Position numbers and translations under genes: made by a program. A stretch of DNA of 64,000 nucleotides from NCBI RefSeq assembly GCF_000828055.2, contig NZ_CP010523.2, forward strand, positions 4,712,001 through 4,776,000, given 5' to 3'. Position 1 is the first letter of the stretch. Each line of letters starts with the position of its first letter. Positions 50,588 to 61,053 of the stretch are shown here, one piece after another. Below the pieces are notes generated by a model. The model had not been told where the DNA came from. It was given only the letters and a program-made list of their open reading frames with translations, and made no database searches. The DNA is from Klebsiella variicola (lineage in GTDB: Bacteria > Pseudomonadota > Gammaproteobacteria > Enterobacterales > Enterobacteriaceae).

Positions 50588-51598
50588 CTATGGCCGCAAG
50601 GCGCAAATCTCATCATGCAATGAACGACTGATGGTAACCCCCTGCTGCTCACTCTGCTGACGGCAGGCGAACCGCCGCTCGCCCGGCAGCCGCGCCCCCT
50701 GATCCTGCATCGCATTGAACAGCGTTTCGGCGCGCGCCAGCTGCTCCTGTGCCTGCGCGCCGAGAAAGCGCTGCGGATCCAGCGCCAGAATCAGCTCGCC
50801 GCCGTAGGGGAGACCGCCCGCGCCATTATCCCACGCCAGCGATTCGGCGCTGGTCATATCGCCGATAAGCGGCCCGGCCAGCAGCTCAACCATTGCCGCC
50901 AGCGCCGAGCCCTTATGGCCGCCGAAGGTTAACATCGCGCCGTTCAGCACCTCTGCGGCATCGGTCGTTGGCTGTCCCTGACTGTCGATTCCCCACCCTT
51001 CCGGTAGCGCTTTGCCGGCGCGCTGATGCAGCTGGATCTCGCCGCGCGCCGCGGCGCTGGTCGCCATATCAACAATAAACGGCGGCTTGTCCCGCCGCGG
51101 CCAGCCAAAGGCGATAGGGTTGGTGCCGAACAGCGGACGCGTGCCGCCCGCCGGGGCGACCCAGGCGTGGCTTGGCGTACAGGCCAGCCCCACCAGCCCT
51201 GCCTCGGTCAACGGCTCAATATCGGCAAACAGCGCGGAAAAATGGACGCAGCGATTAATCGCCAGCGCCGCAATGCCGTTGTGCCGCGCCTTCTCCAGCA
51301 GCAGCGGCAGCGCGCGCTCGTAGGCCAGCAGGGAAAAAGCGCCCCCGGCATCCGCCCGCGCAATCGCCGGCGCCTGGTCGTGGATCTGCGGCTCGGCATC
51401 AGGCGATACCTTACCTTTGCGCAAGGTATCGACAATGCCCAACAGCCGCCACAGGCCGTGGGAAGCGCAGCCGTCGCGCTCCCCGGCAGCCACGTTACGG
51501 GCGATGGCCGCCGCGTGGTCGGCGCCGAATCCATTGGCGCTGAGCACCGCCAGCGCCAGGTCATAAGCTTCAGGTAACGATAGAGTTACCGACTCCAT
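50588..51598 (-). CDS. Ldh2-family NAD(P)H oxidoreductase, possible delta-1-pyrroline-2-carboxylate reductase
   Basis: A 336-residue malate/L-lactate dehydrogenase (Ldh_2) family protein. Motifs include NVAAGERDGCASHGLWRLLG near the N-terminus, FGTNPIAFGWPR and GGHKGSALAAMVELLAG. The family includes ureidoglycolate dehydrogenase and delta-1-pyrroline-2-carboxylate reductases (DpkA/LhpI-like). As the last gene of the hydroxyproline operon the imine reductase role fits best, but this is inference from context. It lies 11 bp after the permease gene and follows AGGAGAACAGT. Confidence 0.75.
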   Translation of the reverse strand: MESVTLSLPEAYDLALAVLSANGFGADHAAAIARNVAAGERDGCASHGLWRLLGIVDTLRKGKVSPDAEPQIHDQAPAIARADAGGAFSLLAYERALPLLLEKARHNGIAALAINRCVHFSALFADIEPLTEAGLVGLACTPSHAWVAPAGGTRPLFGTNPIAFGWPRRDKPPFIVDMATSAAARGEIQLHQRAGKALPEGWGIDSQGQPTTDAAEVLNGAMLTFGGHKGSALAAMVELLAGPLIGDMTSAESLAWDNGAGGLPYGGELILALDPQRFLGAQAQEQLARAETLFNAMQDQGARLPGERRFACRQQSEQQGVTISRSLHDEICALRP

Positions 51599-51609
51599 AC
51601 TGTTCTCCT

Positions 51610-53211
51610 TTACTCTTCTTCGTCTCCGCTAAAATTAGCCTGCGGCAGGCAGCTGCGCGCGCCCCAGTAGTAAATCCCCAACGACATCGCCGCCACCAGC
51701 ACCGTATCCCAGGGGTGACCGATAACATTAAGCCCGCCGAAGCTGCCCAGCCAGGAAAAGAGGATAATCAACGCATAAAACACGATCAGCCACAGCGAAG
51801 ACTTCACCTGCTGCGCCAGGCTCACGGCATGTTCCGGCACCTGACCTTTGCACATCACGTAGACGACAAACATCACGATTTGCAGCCCCAGCAGCCACGA
51901 GAGCGTATTCCAGCCTGACCAGTAGACAATCAGCGCCGAGATCATAAACGATACCGGGCCGATGATGCCGAAGGCGCGCACGCGGAACGGCCGCGGCAGA
52001 TCCGGCGCGTTGCGGCGCAGCCCGGCAGCGGTCACCGGAGCGATGGCGTAGCTCAGCACCAGGGCAGCCGACACCACGCTAATCAGCTGTTCCCAGGAGG
52101 GGAACGGCAGCGTCCAGAAGATTGAAAGCCCGAAGGTCAGCCACAGCGCCGGACGCGGAATCCCGGACGCTTTATCGATATGGGTAAAGGCTTTAAAGAA
52201 AGTACCCGCCTTCGCCCAGCCGTAGATCACCCGCGGCGTCGCGTTCATATAGATATTGCCGGTGCCGCTCGGGGAGATGATCGCATCGCTTATCACCATA
52301 AAGGCCAGCCAGCCCATGCCGAGGGTAATGGCAATATCGCGATACGGCAGCGAGAACTGTTTGCTCACCTCGGCCCAACCGCCGTTCAGCATTTCGGTGG
52401 GGATACTGCCAAGGAACGCCAGCTGCAGCAGCACGTAGATAATCGTCGACAGCACCACTGATAAAATCAACGCAATAGGGATAGTCCGCTGCGGCTTTTG
52501 TACTTCGCTGGCCACCGAGATAATCGGCGTCAGTCCCAGATAAGCGAAGATAATTCCGCCCGCGCTGATCGCCGCTTCCACCCCGGACATGCCGAATGGC
52601 GCAATCCCCTGCGCGTGCAGGTTCTCCGGTTTAAAGAAGGCGAACAGCGTCACCACCACCAGCAGCGGCACCAAAAACTTGAGCACGCTGATGAAGTTGT
52701 TCGATCGGGCGAAGGTCTTAACGCTGTAGTAGTTAAGCGCAAAGAAGAAACAGAGCAGCAGGAACTGCACCACCCACCCCAGCAGCGTCGGCGAACTGGA
52801 ACCCGGCTGGGTCAGCGCCGGAAACCAGGCGGCGGCATATTGCCGGGCGGCGACAATTTCAATCGAGATCAGGCTGGAGAAAGCGATCAGGGTGATGAAC
52901 CCCAGCAGATAGCCCATCAGCTCACCGTGGGAAAAGACCGGGTAGCGAATAATGCCGCCGGCGCGCGGCAGCGCCGCCCCCAGCTCGCAGTAGACAATCC
53001 CCAGCAGCAATACTGCAAAGCCGCCGATCACCCACGAGGCGATCCCGGCCGGACCGGCGATGGAGGCCACGTGGCTGGCGGCGAATAACCATCCGGAGCC
53101 GAATATCGCCCCCAGGCCGATAAAGGTGAGATCGGTCAGGGTCAGCTGTTTTTTAAACTTACCCGACTCAGCAACGCGGGTTTGACTGTTATGCGTAGTG
53201 TGAATGGTCAT
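51610..53211 (-). CDS. APC-family amino acid permease, probably for hydroxyproline
   Basis: A 533-residue amino acid-polyamine-organocation transporter with about 12-14 membrane segments; the first helix carries GLGAIFGSGWLFAASHV, the usual unwound substrate site, and SDAIISPSGTGNIYMNATPRV is typical of a bacterial subgroup. The N-terminus is hydrophilic and the C-terminus ends SGDEEE. Its place between the semialdehyde dehydrogenase and Ldh2 genes suggests uptake of 4-hydroxyproline. The substrate is inferred. Confidence 0.8.
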   Translation of the reverse strand: MTIHTTHNSQTRVAESGKFKKQLTLTDLTFIGLGAIFGSGWLFAASHVASIAGPAGIASWVIGGFAVLLLGIVYCELGAALPRAGGIIRYPVFSHGELMGYLLGFITLIAFSSLISIEIVAARQYAAAWFPALTQPGSSSPTLLGWVVQFLLLCFFFALNYYSVKTFARSNNFISVLKFLVPLLVVVTLFAFFKPENLHAQGIAPFGMSGVEAAISAGGIIFAYLGLTPIISVASEVQKPQRTIPIALILSVVLSTIIYVLLQLAFLGSIPTEMLNGGWAEVSKQFSLPYRDIAITLGMGWLAFMVISDAIISPSGTGNIYMNATPRVIYGWAKAGTFFKAFTHIDKASGIPRPALWLTFGLSIFWTLPFPSWEQLISVVSAALVLSYAIAPVTAAGLRRNAPDLPRPFRVRAFGIIGPVSFMISALIVYWSGWNTLSWLLGLQIVMFVVYVMCKGQVPEHAVSLAQQVKSSLWLIVFYALIILFSWLGSFGGLNVIGHPWDTVLVAAMSLGIYYWGARSCLPQANFSGDEEE

Positions 53212-53226
53212 GGTGATGCCCTTGCG

Positions 53227-54831
53227 TCAATGAGAGGAGGAAATCGCTTCCCGGGTCCACTGGCCGTTGACCAGGCGCAGCAGGTTCAAAGGGTTCGCAT
53301 CCTGCAGCGCCGGCGGTAACAGGGCGGCGGGCGCGTTCTGCAGACAGACCGGGCGCAGAAAGCGTTCAATCGCCCGGCTGCCGACCGAAGTCCCGCGTGC
53401 GTCGGTGGTCGCCGGCCACGGGCCGCCGTGGACCATCGCATCGCACACTTCCACGCCGGTGGGATACCCGTTAAACAGCACCCGTCCGGCCTTCTCACAA
53501 AGCAGCGGTAGCAGGCTCGCCGCCAGCGGGCCATCATCCGCCTCGGCATGCAGCGTCGCGGTGAGCTGACCCTGCAGCGCTTTCACCACCGCCTGCAGCT
53601 GGGCCACGTCGTCCACTTCCACCAGTAGCGATAACGGGCCGAAAACTTCGGTCTGCAGCAGCGTATCCTGCGCCAGCAGATCCTCGACCTGAGCCTGCCA
53701 CAGCAGGGTCTGCGCCTGCCCGGCGCCGGCGGCGATGCCGCTCGCCAACTTCTCGATACGCGGGTGCGCCGCCAGTGCCGCCACTCCCTGACGGTAGTGC
53801 TGAAGGGTCGGCGCATTGAGCAACACCTGCGGCGTGGAGTCCGCTACCGCCGCGCACAGCGCCGACTTGAAGCGTTCCAGCCCGGCGCCGCGCAGCGCCA
53901 GAATCAGCCCCGGACGGGTACAGAACTGGCCGCCGCCGAGGGTGAATGACGCCACCAGCTCGTTTGCCAGCGCCCCGGCCCGCGTCTGCAGCGCCTGCGG
54001 CAGAATAATCAATGGGTTAATCGCCGACATTTCAGCAAACAGCGGAATTGGCTGCGGGCGCTGCTGCGCCAGCTGATACAGCGCCTTACCGCCGGCCAAC
54101 GAACCGGTAAAGCCAACGGCCTGAATCGCCGGATGACGGACCAATTCGGCGCCGATATCGGTCCCGAAAATCATATTGAATACGCCGCCGGGTAAACCGC
54201 ACCGTACCACCGCCCTGACGATCGCCTCGGCGGTCAGCTCGGCGGTGGCCATATGGCCCGGATGGGCCTTCACCACCACCGGGCAGCCAGCCGCCAGCGC
54301 CGAGGCGGTATCGCCGCCAGCGGTAGAAAAGGCCAACGGAAAGTTGCTGGCGCCAAACACCGCCACCGGCCCTAACGCCTGCTGATACTGGCGCAGGTCC
54401 GGGCGCGGCAGCGGCTGACGGTCGGCTAAGGCGGTATCAATACGGGCGGCGAAGGTATCACCGCGCAGGATCACGTCAGCAAACATCCGCAACTGGCCGC
54501 TGGTGCGCGCCCGCTCTCCCTGTAGCCGCGCCAGCGGCAGCGCGGTCTCCTGCCCGGCGATAGCAAAAAACGGCTCGCCCAGCGCGTCCAGTTCATCGGC
54601 AATCGCGCAGAGAAAGTGCGCCCGCTGCTGCGGCGTGGTTTGTGAATAGACGGCAAAGGCCTGCTGCGCGGCTTCTGCGGCCAGTGCGGCTTCCTCACGG
54701 GAAGCCGGATAAAAGCGGTGGCCGGTGGCTTCGCCGTCCACCGCCCGCAGGCTCAATAGCGTCGCCTCACCGCTGGCAATACGGCGTCCGGCGATAAACT
54801 GCCGTCCCGCCATGGTCTGAGATGCATTCAT
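53227..54831 (-). CDS. Alpha-ketoglutarate semialdehyde (2,5-dioxovalerate) dehydrogenase
   Basis: An aldehyde dehydrogenase of 534 residues, the size of the type III alpha-ketoglutarate semialdehyde dehydrogenases. The catalytic cysteine is C304 (GGGQFCTRPG) and the general base E267 (LFAEMSA); cofactor contact GASNFPLAF at 160-168. It would oxidise the product of the DapA-like deaminase to alpha-ketoglutarate, ending hydroxyproline degradation. It follows GGAGTCACT, 14 bp after the deaminase gene, and precedes the permease by 15 bp. It corresponds to LhpG of pseudomonads. Confidence 0.87.
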   Translation of the reverse strand: MNASQTMAGRQFIAGRRIASGEATLLSLRAVDGEATGHRFYPASREEAALAAEAAQQAFAVYSQTTPQQRAHFLCAIADELDALGEPFFAIAGQETALPLARLQGERARTSGQLRMFADVILRGDTFAARIDTALADRQPLPRPDLRQYQQALGPVAVFGASNFPLAFSTAGGDTASALAAGCPVVVKAHPGHMATAELTAEAIVRAVVRCGLPGGVFNMIFGTDIGAELVRHPAIQAVGFTGSLAGGKALYQLAQQRPQPIPLFAEMSAINPLIILPQALQTRAGALANELVASFTLGGGQFCTRPGLILALRGAGLERFKSALCAAVADSTPQVLLNAPTLQHYRQGVAALAAHPRIEKLASGIAAGAGQAQTLLWQAQVEDLLAQDTLLQTEVFGPLSLLVEVDDVAQLQAVVKALQGQLTATLHAEADDGPLAASLLPLLCEKAGRVLFNGYPTGVEVCDAMVHGGPWPATTDARGTSVGSRAIERFLRPVCLQNAPAALLPPALQDANPLNLLRLVNGQWTREAISSSH

Positions 54832-54845
54832 AGTGACTCCTGTGC

Positions 54846-55766
54846 TCAGAGGCCGACATCCGGCAGCGTCGGACGAGTGGCCAGCGCCTGTTCAACGATC
54901 GCCACCACCTGCTGGCGCGTTTCGCCTTCCAGCGCCAGACGCGGCGGACGGGTAATGGCGCTGCCGCGGCCCAGCAACTCTTCACACAGCTTGATGCACT
55001 GCACCAGATCCGGACGCGCATCGAGATGCAGCAGCGGCATGAACCAGCGGTACAGCGCCATCGCCTCTTCGTAACGCTGCTGGCGGGCGAGACGGAATAA
55101 CGTTTCCCCTTCGCGCGGGAAGGCGTTGGACATTCCGGAGATCCAGCCTTCCGCGCCGACGGCGATGCTTTCCACCACCACGTCATCCAGCCCGGCAAAC
55201 AGCACGAAGCGGTCGCCAACGGTGTTACGCAGGTCGATAAAGCGGCGGGTATCGCCGGAGGAGTCTTTAAAGCAGACGATGTTGTCGCAGTCAGTCAGGG
55301 TGGCGAGAATGTCCGGCGTCACGTCGTTTTTGTAAATCGGCGGGTTGTTGTAGACCATAATCGGCAGGTCGGTAGCGCTCGCCACGCTGCGGAAGTGGGC
55401 CGCGGTTTCATGCGGTTTTGAGGAGTAGACCAGCGCCGGCATCACCATGATCCCGTCGACGCCGACGCGCTCCGCCTCTTTCGCCATTTTCTGGGCGAAG
55501 GCGGTGGTGAACTCGGCCACCCCGGCGATGACCGGAATTTTGCCGCCGGCGGCATCCTTCGCCACCTCGATAATCTGTAGTTTTTCATCGGTGCTCAGCG
55601 AGGTGTTTTCACCCACGCTGCCGCATACCACCAGCCCGGAAACGCCATCTTTCACCAGGTTTTTCATCACCGCGTGAGTGGCGTCTAAATCGAGGGAGTA
55701 ATCGCTACGAAACTGCGTGCTGACCGCCGGGAATACGCCGCTCCAGTGAATCGCTTTTTTGCTCAT
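54846..55766 (-). CDS. DapA-family 1-pyrroline-4-hydroxy-2-carboxylate deaminase
   Basis: A class I aldolase-fold protein of the DHDPS/NAL family, 306 residues, with Schiff-base K167 (VCFKDSSGD), Y139 (MVYNNPP) and the N-terminal GSVGENTSLS. In hydroxyproline pathways such a protein (LhpC) deaminates delta-1-pyrroline-4-hydroxy-2-carboxylate to alpha-ketoglutarate semialdehyde. Its neighbours supply both the substrate (D-hydroxyproline dehydrogenase) and the next step (aldehyde dehydrogenase). It is the first gene of the leftward operon; a 21-bp element shared with the epimerase promoter lies 110 bp upstream. Confidence 0.87.
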   Translation of the reverse strand: MSKKAIHWSGVFPAVSTQFRSDYSLDLDATHAVMKNLVKDGVSGLVVCGSVGENTSLSTDEKLQIIEVAKDAAGGKIPVIAGVAEFTTAFAQKMAKEAERVGVDGIMVMPALVYSSKPHETAAHFRSVASATDLPIMVYNNPPIYKNDVTPDILATLTDCDNIVCFKDSSGDTRRFIDLRNTVGDRFVLFAGLDDVVVESIAVGAEGWISGMSNAFPREGETLFRLARQQRYEEAMALYRWFMPLLHLDARPDLVQCIKLCEELLGRGSAITRPPRLALEGETRQQVVAIVEQALATRPTLPDVGL

Positions 55767-55875
55767 GCTCGGTTCCTTGTCGTCATTTTGTTAAGTCGAA
55801 GTGAATGAATGGTGAATATTCACTGACAGATTGACGTGTCGCGGAACCGGCGGCTTGTCGGTTTTCCCTCAATAC

Positions 55876-55896
55876 AATGACGAAATTAGCACAGTC
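55876..55896 (-). promoter_or_regulatory. Shared element A, candidate operator of the hydroxyproline regulator
   Basis: Read toward the deaminase gene, this 21-mer is GACTGTGC, TA, ATTTCGTCATT. It is identical at 19 of 21 positions to the element upstream of the epimerase gene (56951-56971), in the same orientation relative to the gene it precedes. It lies between the deaminase and the PAS-AraC gene. Confidence 0.7.
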
Positions 55897-55917
55897 GGCA
55901 AAAGTGTGAGCCAGCGT

Positions 55918-56742
55918 TTATCCGAGCAGCGTGAGGCGAAAATCGCGCGGCGTCGAGCCGGTCATCGCCTTGAACTGGCGGCTAAAGGCGCTGTGATCGG
56001 TATACCCGCACTGCAGGGCGATATCGGTAATCGGCGTATCGCCAGCCAGCAGTTCGGTCGCTTTTTCCAGCCGCACTTTGTGGATCATCTGCCGCGGAGT
56101 GAGATGAAAGATCCGTTTGCAGTAGCGTTCGATCTGCGCAATCGACATCCCGCTTAAGGCGGTTAACTCTTCCATGGCGATCGGCCGGTGATAATGGCGG
56201 CGGATATGATCGTCGACGATCGCCAGCCGCTGCCACGCCGGATGGCGGGCATGAGCCTCCTGCAGATCGTGCGAGATCCCGGCCATGCCGATCACCTGCC
56301 CGCGGACATCGCGCAGCGCCAGTTTCTGCGTCAGGCACCAGCCGCGCTCGCGGCCATTGTAGAGATGCATTTCCAGCTGATCGCGCAGGGTCACACCTTC
56401 GCGCAACACCCGCAGATCCTGTTCGGTATAACCCTGACCCAGCGCGGAAGGAAAGACATCAGCGGAGGTTTTGCCCAGCAGCGAGGAGACGCTTTTGAAA
56501 CCACAGCGGCGGGCCAGCGTCAGGTTCGCCAGCAGATAGCGCGCCTGACGATCTTTGATAAAAAAGACCACATTAGGAATGGCATTGAGCAGGGGCGCAA
56601 TCAGCGCCAGCGCATTCAGCAGCGCGGGCATATTTTCCGGCCGCTGGCGCGCCAGCCCTTCGCAGATCTGGCTCAGCTCATCGACGGCCAGCTCAGGTTG
56701 GTTAACCGCGCGCGGCGGCGCCGCATCAGAAACACCGATCAT
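55918..56742 (-). CDS. PAS-AraC transcription regulator of the hydroxyproline cluster
   Basis: A 274-residue regulator with an N-terminal PAS-type sensor (about 45-160: NAIPNVVFFIKDRQARYLLAN, then RGQVIGMAGISHDL) and a C-terminal AraC double helix-turn-helix (MEELTALSGMSIAQIERYCKRIF and ITDIALQCGYTDHSAFSRQFKAMTG). In pseudomonads an AraC-type LhpR activates hydroxyproline genes; this is its positional counterpart. The start follows GAGGAGGCCTT. It is flanked on both sides by the shared 21-bp element, which it probably binds (inference). Confidence 0.85.
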   Translation of the reverse strand: MIGVSDAAPPRAVNQPELAVDELSQICEGLARQRPENMPALLNALALIAPLLNAIPNVVFFIKDRQARYLLANLTLARRCGFKSVSSLLGKTSADVFPSALGQGYTEQDLRVLREGVTLRDQLEMHLYNGRERGWCLTQKLALRDVRGQVIGMAGISHDLQEAHARHPAWQRLAIVDDHIRRHYHRPIAMEELTALSGMSIAQIERYCKRIFHLTPRQMIHKVRLEKATELLAGDTPITDIALQCGYTDHSAFSRQFKAMTGSTPRDFRLTLLG

Positions 56743-56950
56743 AAGGCCTCCTCATGGTAAGTGACCGAAGGATATTTATTCACTTTCCGTTAACACCTCA
56801 AGCAGCATCCCTCGGTTTTGCGATCCTGGATCCGCTTTACGCCTTCCCCTGATTTAGCCACTGGCGCAATGGTCACTTTCGGTTTACCACAGCATTAAGC
56901 AAATGATTAATAAGAAATAACTATGTGAAATAGAAATATACCGCGCTCAT

Positions 56951-56971
56951 GACTGTGCAGATTTCGTCATT
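56951..56971 (+). promoter_or_regulatory. Shared element B, candidate operator of the hydroxyproline regulator
   Basis: GACTGTGC, AG, ATTTCGTCATT lies 81 bp before the epimerase start codon. Its TTTCGTCA continues into a perfect inverted repeat with TGACGAAA (56962-56984, 7-base spacer). The rest of the 310-bp divergent gap 56743-57052 shows no gene. Confidence 0.7.
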
Positions 56972-57052
56972 TTCTCTGACGAAAGCGCTCAAGCAGGTCG
57001 GGAAAGGTTGCGCCAGCATGATGAAACATGTTGTTAACTTCCGGAGAGCCTG

Positions 57053-58000
57053 ATGACCGCGCCACGCCCCCCTGTTACGTTGAGAGCTATTGATTCACAT
57101 ACCGGCGGCGAACCGACCCGCCTGATCGTTGACGGATTCCCCGACCTCGGCGGCGGCAGCATGGCGGAGCGCCGCGACCGCTTCGCCCGCGACTTCGACC
57201 ATTGGCGTCAGGCGGCCATTCTCGAACCGCGCGGCAATGACGTACTGGTCGGCGCGCTGCTGTGCAAACCGGTCTCGGCAGCGGCTACCGCTGGCGTGAT
57301 TTTCTTCAACAACGCCGGTTTTCTGAATATGTGCGGCCACGGCACAATCGGGCTTATCGCCTCGCTGGCCTGGCTTGGGCGTATCCAGCCCGGCGTACAT
57401 CTGATTGAAACACCGGTCGGCGACGTAAGCGCTACGTTGCACGACGATGGCAGCGTATCGGTGCAAAACGTCCCGGCCCGCCGCTGGAAAAAACAGATCC
57501 GCGTTGAGACCGCGCATGGTCCCGTCATCGGCGATATTGCCTGGGGCGGCAACTGGTTTTTCCTGATTAACGACCACCCGTTCGCCATTACCCCCGAACA
57601 TATTCCACAGCTCACCGCCTACGCCTGGGCAGTGCGCGAGGGGCTGGAAGCCGCGGGGATCCGCGGCGACGACGGCGGCGTTATCGACCATATCGAACTC
57701 TTCGCCGATGACGATACCGCCGACAGCCGCAACTTCGTACTCTGTCCGGGAAAGGCCTGGGATCGCTCGCCGTGCGGTACCGGCACCAGCGCCAAGCTGG
57801 CCTGCCTGGCGCAGGATGGCAAGCTGCAGCCGGGGGAAATCTGGCGTCAGGCCAGCATCATCGGCAGCCAGTTTACCGCCAGCTACCAGCGCACCGCGGA
57901 AGGCATCATCCCAACGATCCGCGGCGAAGCCTGGGTGTGTGGAGACAACCAGTTGATCCTCAACCCTGACGATCCCTTCTGCTGGGGGATCGCGCCGTGA
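57053..58000 (+). CDS. 4-hydroxyproline 2-epimerase (proline racemase family)
   Basis: It converts trans-4-hydroxy-L-proline to cis-4-hydroxy-D-proline. The 315 residues carry both catalytic cysteines of the racemase/epimerase type: C94 in [10 protein letters not shown] and C241 in [12 protein letters not shown]. The second cysteine argues against a trans-3-hydroxyproline dehydratase, where a threonine stands there. The start follows CCGGAGAGCCTG. It is the first gene of the rightward operon and overlaps the next gene by 4 bp. It corresponds to LhpA of Pseudomonas. Confidence 0.9.
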
Positions 58001-59106
58001 AGCAGTGTGATGTCATCGTGATCGGCGCCGGGATCATCGGCGCCGCCTGCGCGTGGCAGCTGGCGAAGCGGGGGCAGAGCGTGACGCTTATCGACGACGG
58101 TCAGCCCGGCGCCACGGCGGCAGGTATGGGCCATCTGGTGTGCATGGATGACGACCCCGCCGAGCTTGCATTATCGGCATGGTCGCTGGAACGCTGGCGC
58201 GCTATCACGCCACGGATGCCCGACAATTGCGCCTGGCGCGGCTGCGGCACGCTGTGGCTGGCGGAAAGCGAAGAAGAGATGGCCGTCGCGGGCGAAAAAC
58301 TGCGGCGGCTGGCCAGCTATCAGGTGCCCAGCGAACGCCAGACCCCGCAGCAGATCGCCGGGCGCGAACCGCTGCTGCGCGGCGGGCTGGCGGGCGGCCT
58401 GTGGGTGCCAGGCGATGGCATCCTTTACGCGCCAAACGTCGCCCGCTGGCTGATGGCCGATGCCGGAGACCATCTTACCTGCCTGCACGACAGCGCGCAG
58501 GCGATTACCGAACCGCAGGTGCTGCTCGCCAGCGGCAAACGGCTACAGGCGCGGGCCATCGTGGTGGCCTGCGGACTTGAAGCCAACGCGCTGTTAGCGG
58601 AAAACTGGCTGCGACCGAAAAAAGGCCAACTGGCGATTACCGATCGCTACCGGCCGCGGGTGCATCACCAGCTGGTTGAGCTGGGTTACGGCGCCAGCGC
58701 CCATGGCGGCGGCACCTCGGTGGCGTTTAACCTTCAGCCGCGGCCAACCGGCCAGCTGCTGATTGGCTCTTCGCGTCAGTTTGATAACCGTGAGCGCGAG
58801 TTGGATCTGCCCTTGCTGGCGCAGATGCTCGATCGCGCCCGCCATTTCGTTCCGGCGCTGGCGACGTTGAATATCATCCGCTGCTGGAGCGGCCTGCGCG
58901 CCGCCTCGCAGGATGGCAACCCGCTGATCGGCCCGCATCCCACGCGCCGTGGCGTATGGCTGGCGCTGGGCCATGAAGGGCTGGGCGTCACCACCGCTCC
59001 GGCCACAGCTGAACTGCTGGCGGCGCAGATCCTCGATGAACGCTGCCCATTGGCGCCCGACGCCTGGCTCCCGGCCCGTTTGTGTCAACAGGAGGCGATT
59101 GCATGA
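57997..59106 (+). CDS. D-hydroxyproline dehydrogenase, FAD (DAO-type) catalytic subunit
   Basis: A D-amino acid oxidase-fold flavoprotein of 369 residues with [15 protein letters not shown] at 7-21 and the C-terminal [18 protein letters not shown]-binding segment. With the next two genes it forms a multi-subunit dehydrogenase oxidising cis-4-hydroxy-D-proline to the pyrroline. GTG 57997 overlaps the epimerase stop (GTGA), and the gene in turn overlaps the ferredoxin-like subunit (ATGA). It corresponds to LhpB. Confidence 0.87.
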
Positions 59107-59366
59107 AGGCCACGCTCACTATCACCATTGATGGCGAAGCGCTGACGGTGCCGGAAGGCATTAGCGTGGCGGCGGCGCTGGCGTTGACCGGCGACCCCAC
59201 CACCCGCCAGGCGGTTAACGGCGAGCTCCGCGCGCCGTTTTGCGGCATGGGCGTCTGCCAGGAGTGCCGGGTCACCGTCGATGGCCTTCGGGTGCTGGCC
59301 TGCCAGACCCTGTGCCGGGCCGGTATGCAAATAGAAAGGAGCCACGATGAACACGCTGCGCTGTGA
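59103..59366 (+). CDS. D-hydroxyproline dehydrogenase, small [2Fe-2S] subunit
   Basis: An 87-residue ferredoxin-like protein with cluster cysteines C47, C52, C55 and C67 (FCGMGVCQEC and LAC). Such subunits pass electrons in soxA/hcnA-type three-part amine dehydrogenases. ATG 59103 is used (behind CAGGAGGCGATTGC and overlapping the upstream stop); a reading from 59082 adds seven residues. It overlaps the next gene by 20 bp. Confidence 0.87.
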   Translation: MKATLTITIDGEALTVPEGISVAAALALTGDPTTRQAVNGELRAPFCGMGVCQECRVTVDGLRVLACQTLCRAGMQIERSHDEHAAL

Positions 59367-60609
59367 CATTTTAATCCTCGGCGCCGGCCCCGCCGGCATG
59401 GCGGCCGCGCTCTCCGCCGCCGCCTGCGATAAACAGGTGATTATTCTCGACGATAACCCCGCCCCTGGCGGACAAATCTGGCGCGCCGGTCCGCAGGCGA
59501 CGCAGCCCGCCCTGGCCCGGCGCTACCGCGACGCCATCGCCGCGTCTGCCGCCATCCGGGTAGTGAACGGCGCGCGGCTGATTGCCCGCCCCTCCGCGCA
59601 CAGCGTGCTGTTTGAAACCGCCGACGGCGGCGGCGTGGTTTGCTGGCAGAAACTGATCCTCTGCTGCGGCGCGCGCGAGCTGTCGCTGCCCTTTCCCGGC
59701 TGGACCTTACCCGGCGTGACCGGCGCGGGCGGCCTGCAGGCGCAAATCAAACAGGGCCTGTCGCTGAAAGGAGAAAAGGTGGTGATTGCCGGCAGCGGTC
59801 CGCTACTGCTGGCGGTGGCGGATACGGTGAACAAGGCTGGAGGCGACGTGACGAATATCATTGAACAAGCGCCGCTCCCGGCGCTGCTGCGCTTCGCCGG
59901 CGGGCTGTGGCGCTGGCCGCAGAAGCTGCGCCAGTTAGCGACGCTGGCCCCGAAAGGCTATCTGAGCGGCGCGCAGACGATCCGCGCTCACGGCGCAACG
60001 CGGCTGGAAGCCGTTACGCTTCGCCAGCGCGGCGTCGAGCGGACTATCGCCTGCGATCGGCTGGCTATCGGCTACGGGCTGATACCCAATATCGAGACGG
60101 GGCTGCTGTTTGGCTGCGCCACGGCACAGGAGGCGATCCAGGTTAACCGCTGGCAGCAGACCAGCGTCGCGGATATCTATGCCGCCGGCGAGTGCACCGG
60201 TTTCGGCGGTAGCGAGCTGGCGCTGGCGGAGGGCGAAATCGCCGGGTATGCCGCCGCCGGGGCCAGCCAGCAAGCGCAGGCGTTATTTACCCGCCGCGCC
60301 CGCTGGCAGCGTTTCGCCGAAGCAATCAACCGTACCTTCCGGCTGACGGAATCCTTGAAAGACGCCGCAACGCCGGAGAGCCTGCTGTGCCGCTGCGAGG
60401 ATGTACGCTGCGGCGATGTGGCGGCCGCCGGAGGCTGGCCGCAGGCCAAACTTACCCAGCGCTGCGGAATGGGCGCCTGTCAGGGGCGCACCTGCGCCGC
60501 CAGCGCCCGCTGGTTGTACGGCTGGCCGCTGCCGCAGCCAAGAGAACCGCTGGCCCCCGCCCGCGCGGAAACGCTTATTGCCCTCGCCCGACCGAGCGCC
60601 GAGCCGTAA
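59347..60609 (+). CDS. D-hydroxyproline dehydrogenase, NAD/FAD-binding subunit with BFD-like iron-sulfur domain
   Basis: A 420-residue pyridine nucleotide-disulfide oxidoreductase-fold subunit: ILGAGPAGMAAALSAA at the N-terminus, a second nucleotide site VVIAGSGPLLLAVAD, and the AAGECTGFGGSELAL flavin segment. The C-terminus has a BFD-type [2Fe-2S] motif (LCRCEDVRCGD, then CGMGACQGRTC). It resembles the alpha subunit of cyanide synthase/opine oxidase complexes. The start follows AGGAGCCACG. It ends only 3 bp from the convergent hpaR stop, with no terminator between. Confidence 0.87.
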   Translation: MNTLRCDILILGAGPAGMAAALSAAACDKQVIILDDNPAPGGQIWRAGPQATQPALARRYRDAIAASAAIRVVNGARLIARPSAHSVLFETADGGGVVCWQKLILCCGARELSLPFPGWTLPGVTGAGGLQAQIKQGLSLKGEKVVIAGSGPLLLAVADTVNKAGGDVTNIIEQAPLPALLRFAGGLWRWPQKLRQLATLAPKGYLSGAQTIRAHGATRLEAVTLRQRGVERTIACDRLAIGYGLIPNIETGLLFGCATAQEAIQVNRWQQTSVADIYAAGECTGFGGSELALAEGEIAGYAAAGASQQAQALFTRRARWQRFAEAINRTFRLTESLKDAATPESLLCRCEDVRCGDVAAAGGWPQAKLTQRCGMGACQGRTCAASARWLYGWPLPQPREPLAPARAETLIALARPSAEP

Positions 60610-60612
60610 CCG

Positions 60613-61053
60613 CTACTCTTCTTCATCACCGCGCCCGGCAGGGACGCCAAGCGCAATAAACTCCTCCAGCAGCGAGGTCAGTTGCTGCAGCTTTTCCGTG
60701 GTGAACTGGGCCTCCAGCAGACGATAGGTTTCTTCCACCTCGGCCTGAGCGCTTTCATACAGCGCGGTTCCGGCAGGCGTCAGCGAGACGTACAGCTTGC
60801 GCTGATCGTTAACCGGCTTTAAGCGCAGCACCAGCCCATCCCGCTCCATGCGCGTCAAAATCCCGGTCAGGCTGGGGCGCAGGATGCAGGCGCGAAAGGC
60901 CAGATCGTGAAAATCCATCGACGGACGTTCGGCGAGAATTCGCACGATCCGCCACTGCTGTTCGGTGAGATTGTGCCGTTTGACGATCGGCCGAAAGTAG
61001 GCCATCGCCGCCTCACGCGCCTGCAACAAGGCAATGGTTAATGAATCATGCAT
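60613..61053 (-). CDS. hpaR: MarR-type repressor of homoprotocatechuate degradation HpaR
   Basis: HpaR represses the hpa meta-cleavage operon and itself, and is relieved by 4-hydroxyphenylacetate-type aromatics. The 146 residues (E. coli W about 149) start MHDSLTIALLQAREAAMAYFRPIVKRHNLTEQQW; the winged helix is DFHDLAFRACILRPSLTG with the wing MERDGLVLRLKPVNDQRK. It diverges from hpaG across 287 bp that hold two matching palindromes. Confidence 0.94.
   Translation of the reverse strand: MHDSLTIALLQAREAAMAYFRPIVKRHNLTEQQWRIVRILAERPSMDFHDLAFRACILRPSLTGILTRMERDGLVLRLKPVNDQRKLYVSLTPAGTALYESAQAEVEETYRLLEAQFTTEKLQQLTSLLEEFIALGVPAGRGDEEE

Follow-up and report, generated by a model that had tools for sequence, protein, structure and literature searches.

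In the window, i.e., the whole stretch of 64,000 nt of Klebsiella variicola DNA analyzed here, two divergent operons are each preceded by one copy of a directional, two-part DNA element of fixed length. This element is conserved beside orthologous gene clusters and co-occurs with the gene for a PAS-AraC regulator that is encoded between the operons. Sequence comparisons indicate that it is most probably the operator of an LhpR-type AraC-family activator, shared by both operons and with its proximal half at -35; the regulator would switch on both operons in a class-II manner in response to a hydroxyproline-type signal. In kind, the object is ordinary, and its identification as a two-part operator of an AraC-family activator is well supported by comparison. 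The interest lies in the persistence of the regulator-operator pair across several phyla and in how well it fits the breakdown of collagen and of hydroxyproline, one of collagen's building blocks.

A bipartite element before both operons

The initial annotation drew attention to a 21-mer, GACTGTGCNNATTTCGTCATT, with two copies in the window, and its coordinates, strands and agreement at 19 of 21 positions were reproduced (Table 1). The spacings were also right: element A lies 109 bp from the start codon of the deaminase gene (55766) and element B 81 bp from that of the epimerase gene (57053). No third copy with up to three mismatches was present in the window, and the mean in 100 dinucleotide-preserving shuffles was 0.01. 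In the whole genome (5,521,203 bases), A and B were the sole matches to the 21-mer at zero to two mismatches, with two further matches at three. Chance as the source of the repeated element was set aside on the basis of the window shuffles, the genome scan and the distant-locus controls given below.

Conservation extended beyond the 21-mer, both in eight orthologous loci of related genomes and in 26 loci (L035-L060) of named genomes. The 21-mer is the left, distal half of a 41-bp core, TGTGC-N31-CAAGC. A scan of the window's genome with this pattern gave two exact copies, A and B, beside the cluster alone, and the next three matches all had three mismatches; the expectation that the site would not be widespread was thus borne out. 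Searching by pattern yielded 65 sites in 34 loci, and the span from TRTGC to CAAGC was 41 bp in every one. Three conserved blocks stood out in the aligned columns: AYTGTGCYRATTTCGTCAT as the distal island, GAAA..CAAGC as the proximal island and, always at the same distance, CAnnnT, which starts 19 nt after CAAGC (+60 from the T of TGTGC) and was present in 59 of 61 Enterobacterales and Pseudomonas sites. The operator originally proposed was correctly described as directional and as preceding both operons, but the site is bipartite and about twice as long. Its description as non-palindromic was not established, as the halves may be direct or inverted repeats and the symmetry test was ambiguous: a direct repeat at 22 bp in A gave P 0.059, and A and B combined gave P 0.026 for an inverted and P 0.365 for a direct repeat.

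The genes around the two elements suit a trans-4-hydroxyproline catabolic cluster, judging by their families. In the product of the regulator gene, a PAS domain is followed by an AraC-type HTH, and the gene is encoded with hydroxyproline catabolic genes, as expected for the LhpR type. Over residues 57-270, the regulator shares 65% identity with the AraC-family protein encoded in a P. aeruginosa lhp cluster. Directly after the hydroxyproline cluster, an HpaR-type regulator is encoded at window positions 60613-61053 (TIGR02337, 190 bits, cut-off 121), where a 4-hydroxyphenylacetate cluster probably begins.

Table 1. Features in the window and at other loci bearing the element or a second palindrome
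Feature	Position or locus	Strand	Details
Element A, full bipartite, before deaminase operon	55853..55896	-	41-bp core 55853-55893; 21-mer 55876-55896
Element B, full bipartite, before epimerase operon	56951..56994	+	41-bp core 56954-56994; 21-mer 56951-56971
Candidate -10 box, A promoter	55828..55833	-	CAATCT (CAnnnT at +60); predicted; few TATAAT matches
Candidate -10 box, B promoter	57014..57019	+	CAGCAT, same offset; predicted
LhpR-type regulator, putative binder of A and B	55918..56742	-	PAS_4 73.3 bits and AraC-type HTH_18 83.8 bits, above cut-offs
Left operon, four genes	50588..55766	-	Intergenic gaps 14, 15, 11 bp
DHDPS-family deaminase	54846-55766	-	Left operon
Aldehyde dehydrogenase	53227-54831	-	Left operon
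Amino-acid permease	51610-53211	-	Left operon
Ldh2-family reductase	50588-51598	-	Left operon
Right operon, four genes	57053..60609	+	
4-hydroxyproline epimerase	57053-58000	+	NF010577, 491 bits, cut-off 442
DAO-type FAD oxidoreductase	57997-59106	+	Right operon
Small 2Fe-2S protein	59103-59363	+	Right operon
NAD(P)/FAD oxidoreductase	59347-60609	+	Right operon
TTCGTATACGAA-type palindrome before GntR-family gene	L137:1128-1139		2 mismatches
TTCGTATACGAA-type palindrome before substrate-binding operon	L137:11129-11140		1 mismatch
TTCGTATACGAA-type palindrome before deaminase	L137:17036-17047		0 mismatches
DHDPS family behind element	L088, L094, L106, L109, L111		
Proline racemase family behind element	L068		
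Proline dehydrogenase and aldehyde dehydrogenase, PutA-like, behind element	L098		
Prolyl oligopeptidase/DPP-IV family behind element	L072, L075, L076, L077		Divergent from PAS-AraC regulator; Verrucomicrobiota
M9 collagenase behind exact TTGTGC-N30-CAAGAC	L100:2343-4805		Beside PAS-AraC regulator; Dokdonella MAG

Conservation and co-occurrence with the regulator

For site counts, weight-matrix training and the -10 test, L057 and L060 were dropped as duplicates of L011 and L010, which takes the 65 sites in 34 loci to 61 sites in 32 loci. Conservation beside orthologous clusters, named in the initial annotation as a check of its proposal, was complete: the element preceded every one of the 63 operon arms of 32 Enterobacterales and Pseudomonas loci (61 by pattern and two by weight matrix), with Pseudomonas sp. 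8O counted as one arm. The two arms missed by pattern, both on the epimerase side (L046 and L055), scored 23.3 and 15.4 bits; the best background score was -4.0 bits in 474,519 shuffled bases from one letter shuffle. The 61 pattern sites preceded the deaminase-side operon (31), the epimerase operon (29) or the permease operon (one, in Pseudomonas sp. 8O). One of the 31 deaminase-side sites precedes an aldehyde dehydrogenase gene at a locus where a deaminase gene was not found.

The proposed link between the PAS-AraC regulator and the site is supported by their distribution among 60 relatives. Exact 41-bp copies were detected in eight of them, two per genome, and these were the eight with a regulator orthologue at at least 79% identity. 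No exact copy occurred in the other 52 relatives, which lack a close orthologue; the pattern gave 18 hits there, all with two mismatches, vs. eight for the reversed control. The element was absent from an epimerase cluster with a regulator 37-38% identical (L013, best -18.3 bits) and was not found by weight matrix in Variovorax (L134). A Paraburkholderia locus (L129) contained the exact words TGTGC and CAAGAC, but scored just -3.7 bits, i.e., at noise level. Both elements were present in the two E. coli loci examined (L135 and L136; 55.7 and 50.1 bits each). The hydroxyproline cluster region was detected in 34 of 5,426 complete E. coli genomes, all chromosomal. A class-wide search with the regulator of Pseudomonas sp. 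8O at E 1e-30 matched seven of 369 genomes, one of them the window's own; these loci were judged by eye and stand outside the counts.

There was no Pseudomonas match among 14 control genomes, and a P. aeruginosa plasmid record (L137) carrying an lhp-like cluster was used as the anchor. Judging by the gene set, the AraC-family protein of this cluster would be LhpR, known as PA1261 in Pseudomonas aeruginosa and grouped with the lhp genes. The element was found before the epimerase gene (42.5 bits) and before the annotated delta1-pyrroline-2-carboxylate reductase gene (18.1 bits). No element preceded the substrate-binding/aconitase operon, the deaminase, the aldehyde dehydrogenase or the lhpR-like gene, where scores were -28 bits or lower. 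In the accessible text of PMC5144071, LhpH is the name used for pyrroline-2-carboxylate reductase, and naming of the lhp genes varies among papers (PMC8264665). The annotated reductase gene would appear to be the lhpH of PMC5144071, in which case the element sorts the P. aeruginosa operons in line with their expression. Three TTCGTATACGAA-type palindromes, against 0.07 expected, were located in this cluster, all at promoters without the LhpR-type element; they are perhaps the sites of a second regulator.

Proposed mechanism and alternatives

We infer that the two 21-mers are the distal halves of operators of about 44 bp for the PAS-AraC regulator encoded between the operons. This protein would bind the entire element, probably as a dimer, over a span of about -74 to -31 relative to the predicted start, and the signal would be hydroxyproline or a close catabolite. 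The corresponding transcription starts would lie near 55821 (-) and 57026 (+). The proximal half (GAAA..CAAGC) would stand in for the -35 hexamer and be followed by a weak -10 box (CAnnnT), and the regulator would recruit RNA polymerase in the style of a class-II activator, so that both operons are switched on together. In the class-II layout of AraC-family activators, the proximal half-site is at -35. The element shares several features of an AraC/XylS operator: it is directional, occupies a fixed upstream position, is encoded with an AraC-family regulator and tracks that regulator across genomes. Against the model, the repeat symmetry of a dimer site is not clear within the element. Furthermore, where the -10 box is predicted, none of the 65 Enterobacterales and Pseudomonas sites agreed with TATAAT at four or more positions, and therefore either the promoter is weak or the CAnnnT box is misassigned. 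A single short DNA element would make the LhpR-type activation mechanism testable.

Bipartite operators of the AraC family, such as araI1-I2, are directional, two-part sites of about 40 bp whose proximal half lies at -35; the window element differs from araI1-I2 in that a direct repeat is only weakly visible in it. The LhpR/lhp system of P. aeruginosa is alike in its regulator with PAS and AraC-type domains, its hydroxyproline genes, the description of its regulator as an activator and an element before two operons, and unlike in its operon arrangement and in that some operons lack the element and have another palindrome instead. In the accessible text of PMC6608401, LhpR is described as an activator of the AraC family that responds to L-Hyp, and a PAS-domain survey, in its available part, predicts the ligand of the LhpR PAS domain as "autoinducers", not hydroxyproline (PMC8694187). 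PruR, an AraC/XylS activator of putA in P. aeruginosa, has a footprint from -71 to -41, immediately 5' of the -35 box, according to the accessible text of PMC5879082. It likewise activates proline catabolism, and its footprint is near the span predicted for the window element, but glutamate releases PruR and no PAS domain is mentioned in that text (PMC5879082); the likeness noted here is one of position. HypR acts on this pathway in other bacteria, and its regulon has been reconstructed across Proteobacteria, but it is a repressor of hydroxyproline genes from the unrelated GntR family, and its motifs as quoted in the available parts of the sources differ from the window element (PMC6608401, PMC5343134). 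The bipartite motif is undescribed in the accessible text of the open-access literature searched (including PMC8694187, PMC6608401, PMC5144071, PMC5879082, PMC5835353, PMC8264665, PMC5343134, PMC3223726, and PMC9023270). Part of the operator may already be published for P. aeruginosa in the primary LhpR study (Li and Lu 2016, 10.1099/mic.0.000300).

The element could also be an operator at which the regulator chiefly represses, or controls its own gene, instead of activating, which we consider improbable. Element A lies beyond the 3' end of the regulator gene, and the element occupies a fixed place upstream of the -10-like box of the divergent operon, a position typical of an activator, as LhpR is called in the accessible text of PMC6608401. 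Element B does sit in the regulator's own upstream region, and the initial annotation had suggested autoregulation through it. This suggestion gained no specific support, as B is directed away from the regulator, 212 bp from its start codon; in 28 loci, element B starts 212-410 bp from the start of regulator homology and likewise faces away. The 93 bp examined upstream of the P. aeruginosa lhpR-like gene contained no element. Autoregulation may still occur, since elements at distant loci are often near the regulator start (2-440 bp from the start of regulator homology, mostly <100 bp, at loci with a score of at least 11). In addition, a weaker element (7.8 bits) is directed at the regulator in one Burkholderia record.

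Binding by a global regulator such as CRP, or by another factor, in place of the local regulator is very unlikely. Read on the opposite strand, the distal half (TGACG-N6-GCACA) is a degenerate version of the CRP consensus TGTGA-N6-TCACA and by eye resembles half a CRP site, but the genome has just two exact copies, exact copies are confined to the eight of 60 relatives with the regulator, and the same fixed spacing recurs beside the regulator's relatives in distant phyla. Least credible is that a promoter, an RNA leader or a recent duplication, not a protein-binding site, explains the conservation: the same block precedes both operons and the third block is promoter-like, but positions 55700-57100 have no Rfam match at E up to 1, the conserved islands extend ~70 bp upstream of the predicted start, A and B diverge around and between the islands while the islands are preserved, and no exact copy is found where a close orthologue is absent.

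The element in distant phyla

The putative pair of PAS-AraC activator and operator was followed in 52 distant loci (L061-L112), which share 37-53% identity with the query regulator and form the lower part of the 80 matches listed. With words derived from Enterobacterales alone, TGTGC and CAAG were found at a spacing of 30 or 31 in 20 of the 52 upstream regions (600 bp), all directed away from the regulator; the other spacings from 10 to 49 gave four matches in the same orientation and two in the opposite one. With the refined words TTGTGC and CAAGAC, which were partly trained on the same distant loci, 25 of 52 loci scored 11 or 12 of 12 with the element facing away from the regulator, and 27 were below the threshold. 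Controls for the refined words gave 1/52 on the opposite strand, 0/104 in coding scans and 11/5,200 in shuffles, and generic AraC loci gave one match at a score of at least 11 in 69,993 bases. The spacing was 30 in 17 loci and 31 in eight, and any other spacing from 20 to 41 gave at most two. All 52 loci taken whole yielded 38 matches under slightly wider scoring, so some fall outside the upstream regions counted for the 25. TATAAT-like hexamers 17-19 nt after CAAGAC were present in 16 of 37 selected distant sites (30 with a score of at least 10 and seven weaker ones chosen by hand; shuffled mean 2.2, maximum 7). As labelled, the 25 loci belonged to Verrucomicrobiota (8), Planctomycetota (7), Pseudomonadota (5) and Acidobacteriota (3), with two unclear. 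Two Deinococcus plasmid clusters had weaker matches (2.8 and 2.9 bits) and were negative in the word scan.

At 19 of the 25 distant element loci, the scan covered the first long gene on the divergent side (Table 1). By family assignment, the elements appear to face hydroxyproline dehydratases, a PutA-like enzyme, prolyl peptidases and one collagenase, suggesting a shared theme. Because MR/MLE, DHDPS, and S9 are broad families, this hydroxyproline/collagen theme is one that we infer. The exception among the scanned genes was an outer-membrane receptor (L092). Outside the 19 scanned loci, L073 and L089 had epimerase homologues by tblastn, L086 and L101 resembled the scanned loci by eye, and L071 and L083 made up the remainder.

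We lean towards the view that the catabolism of proline, hydroxyproline and collagen peptides is under a single ancient transcriptional code in Pseudomonadota, Verrucomicrobiota, Planctomycetota, Acidobacteriota and, possibly, Deinococcota. This code would consist of a PAS-AraC activator together with TTGTGC-N30/31-CAAGAC at the edge of the -35 region and could serve to predict new pathway genes. If true, such genes would include prolyl-oligopeptidase-family enzymes and the collagenase directly behind the element. Transcription-factor binding motifs usually drift fast, and a regulator-operator pair recognizable at ~40% protein identity across phyla would therefore be unusual, as well as useful. 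The element could serve as a search string for (hydroxy)proline regulons and hints at roles of unannotated neighbours. Element-bearing loci were spread over the regulator tree, which is a quick tree with weak deep support. In this tree, the PAS-AraC and MR/MLE genes of L103, a MAG labelled "Klebsiella pneumoniae", grouped with planctomycete-like loci, and the species label is probably a binning error.
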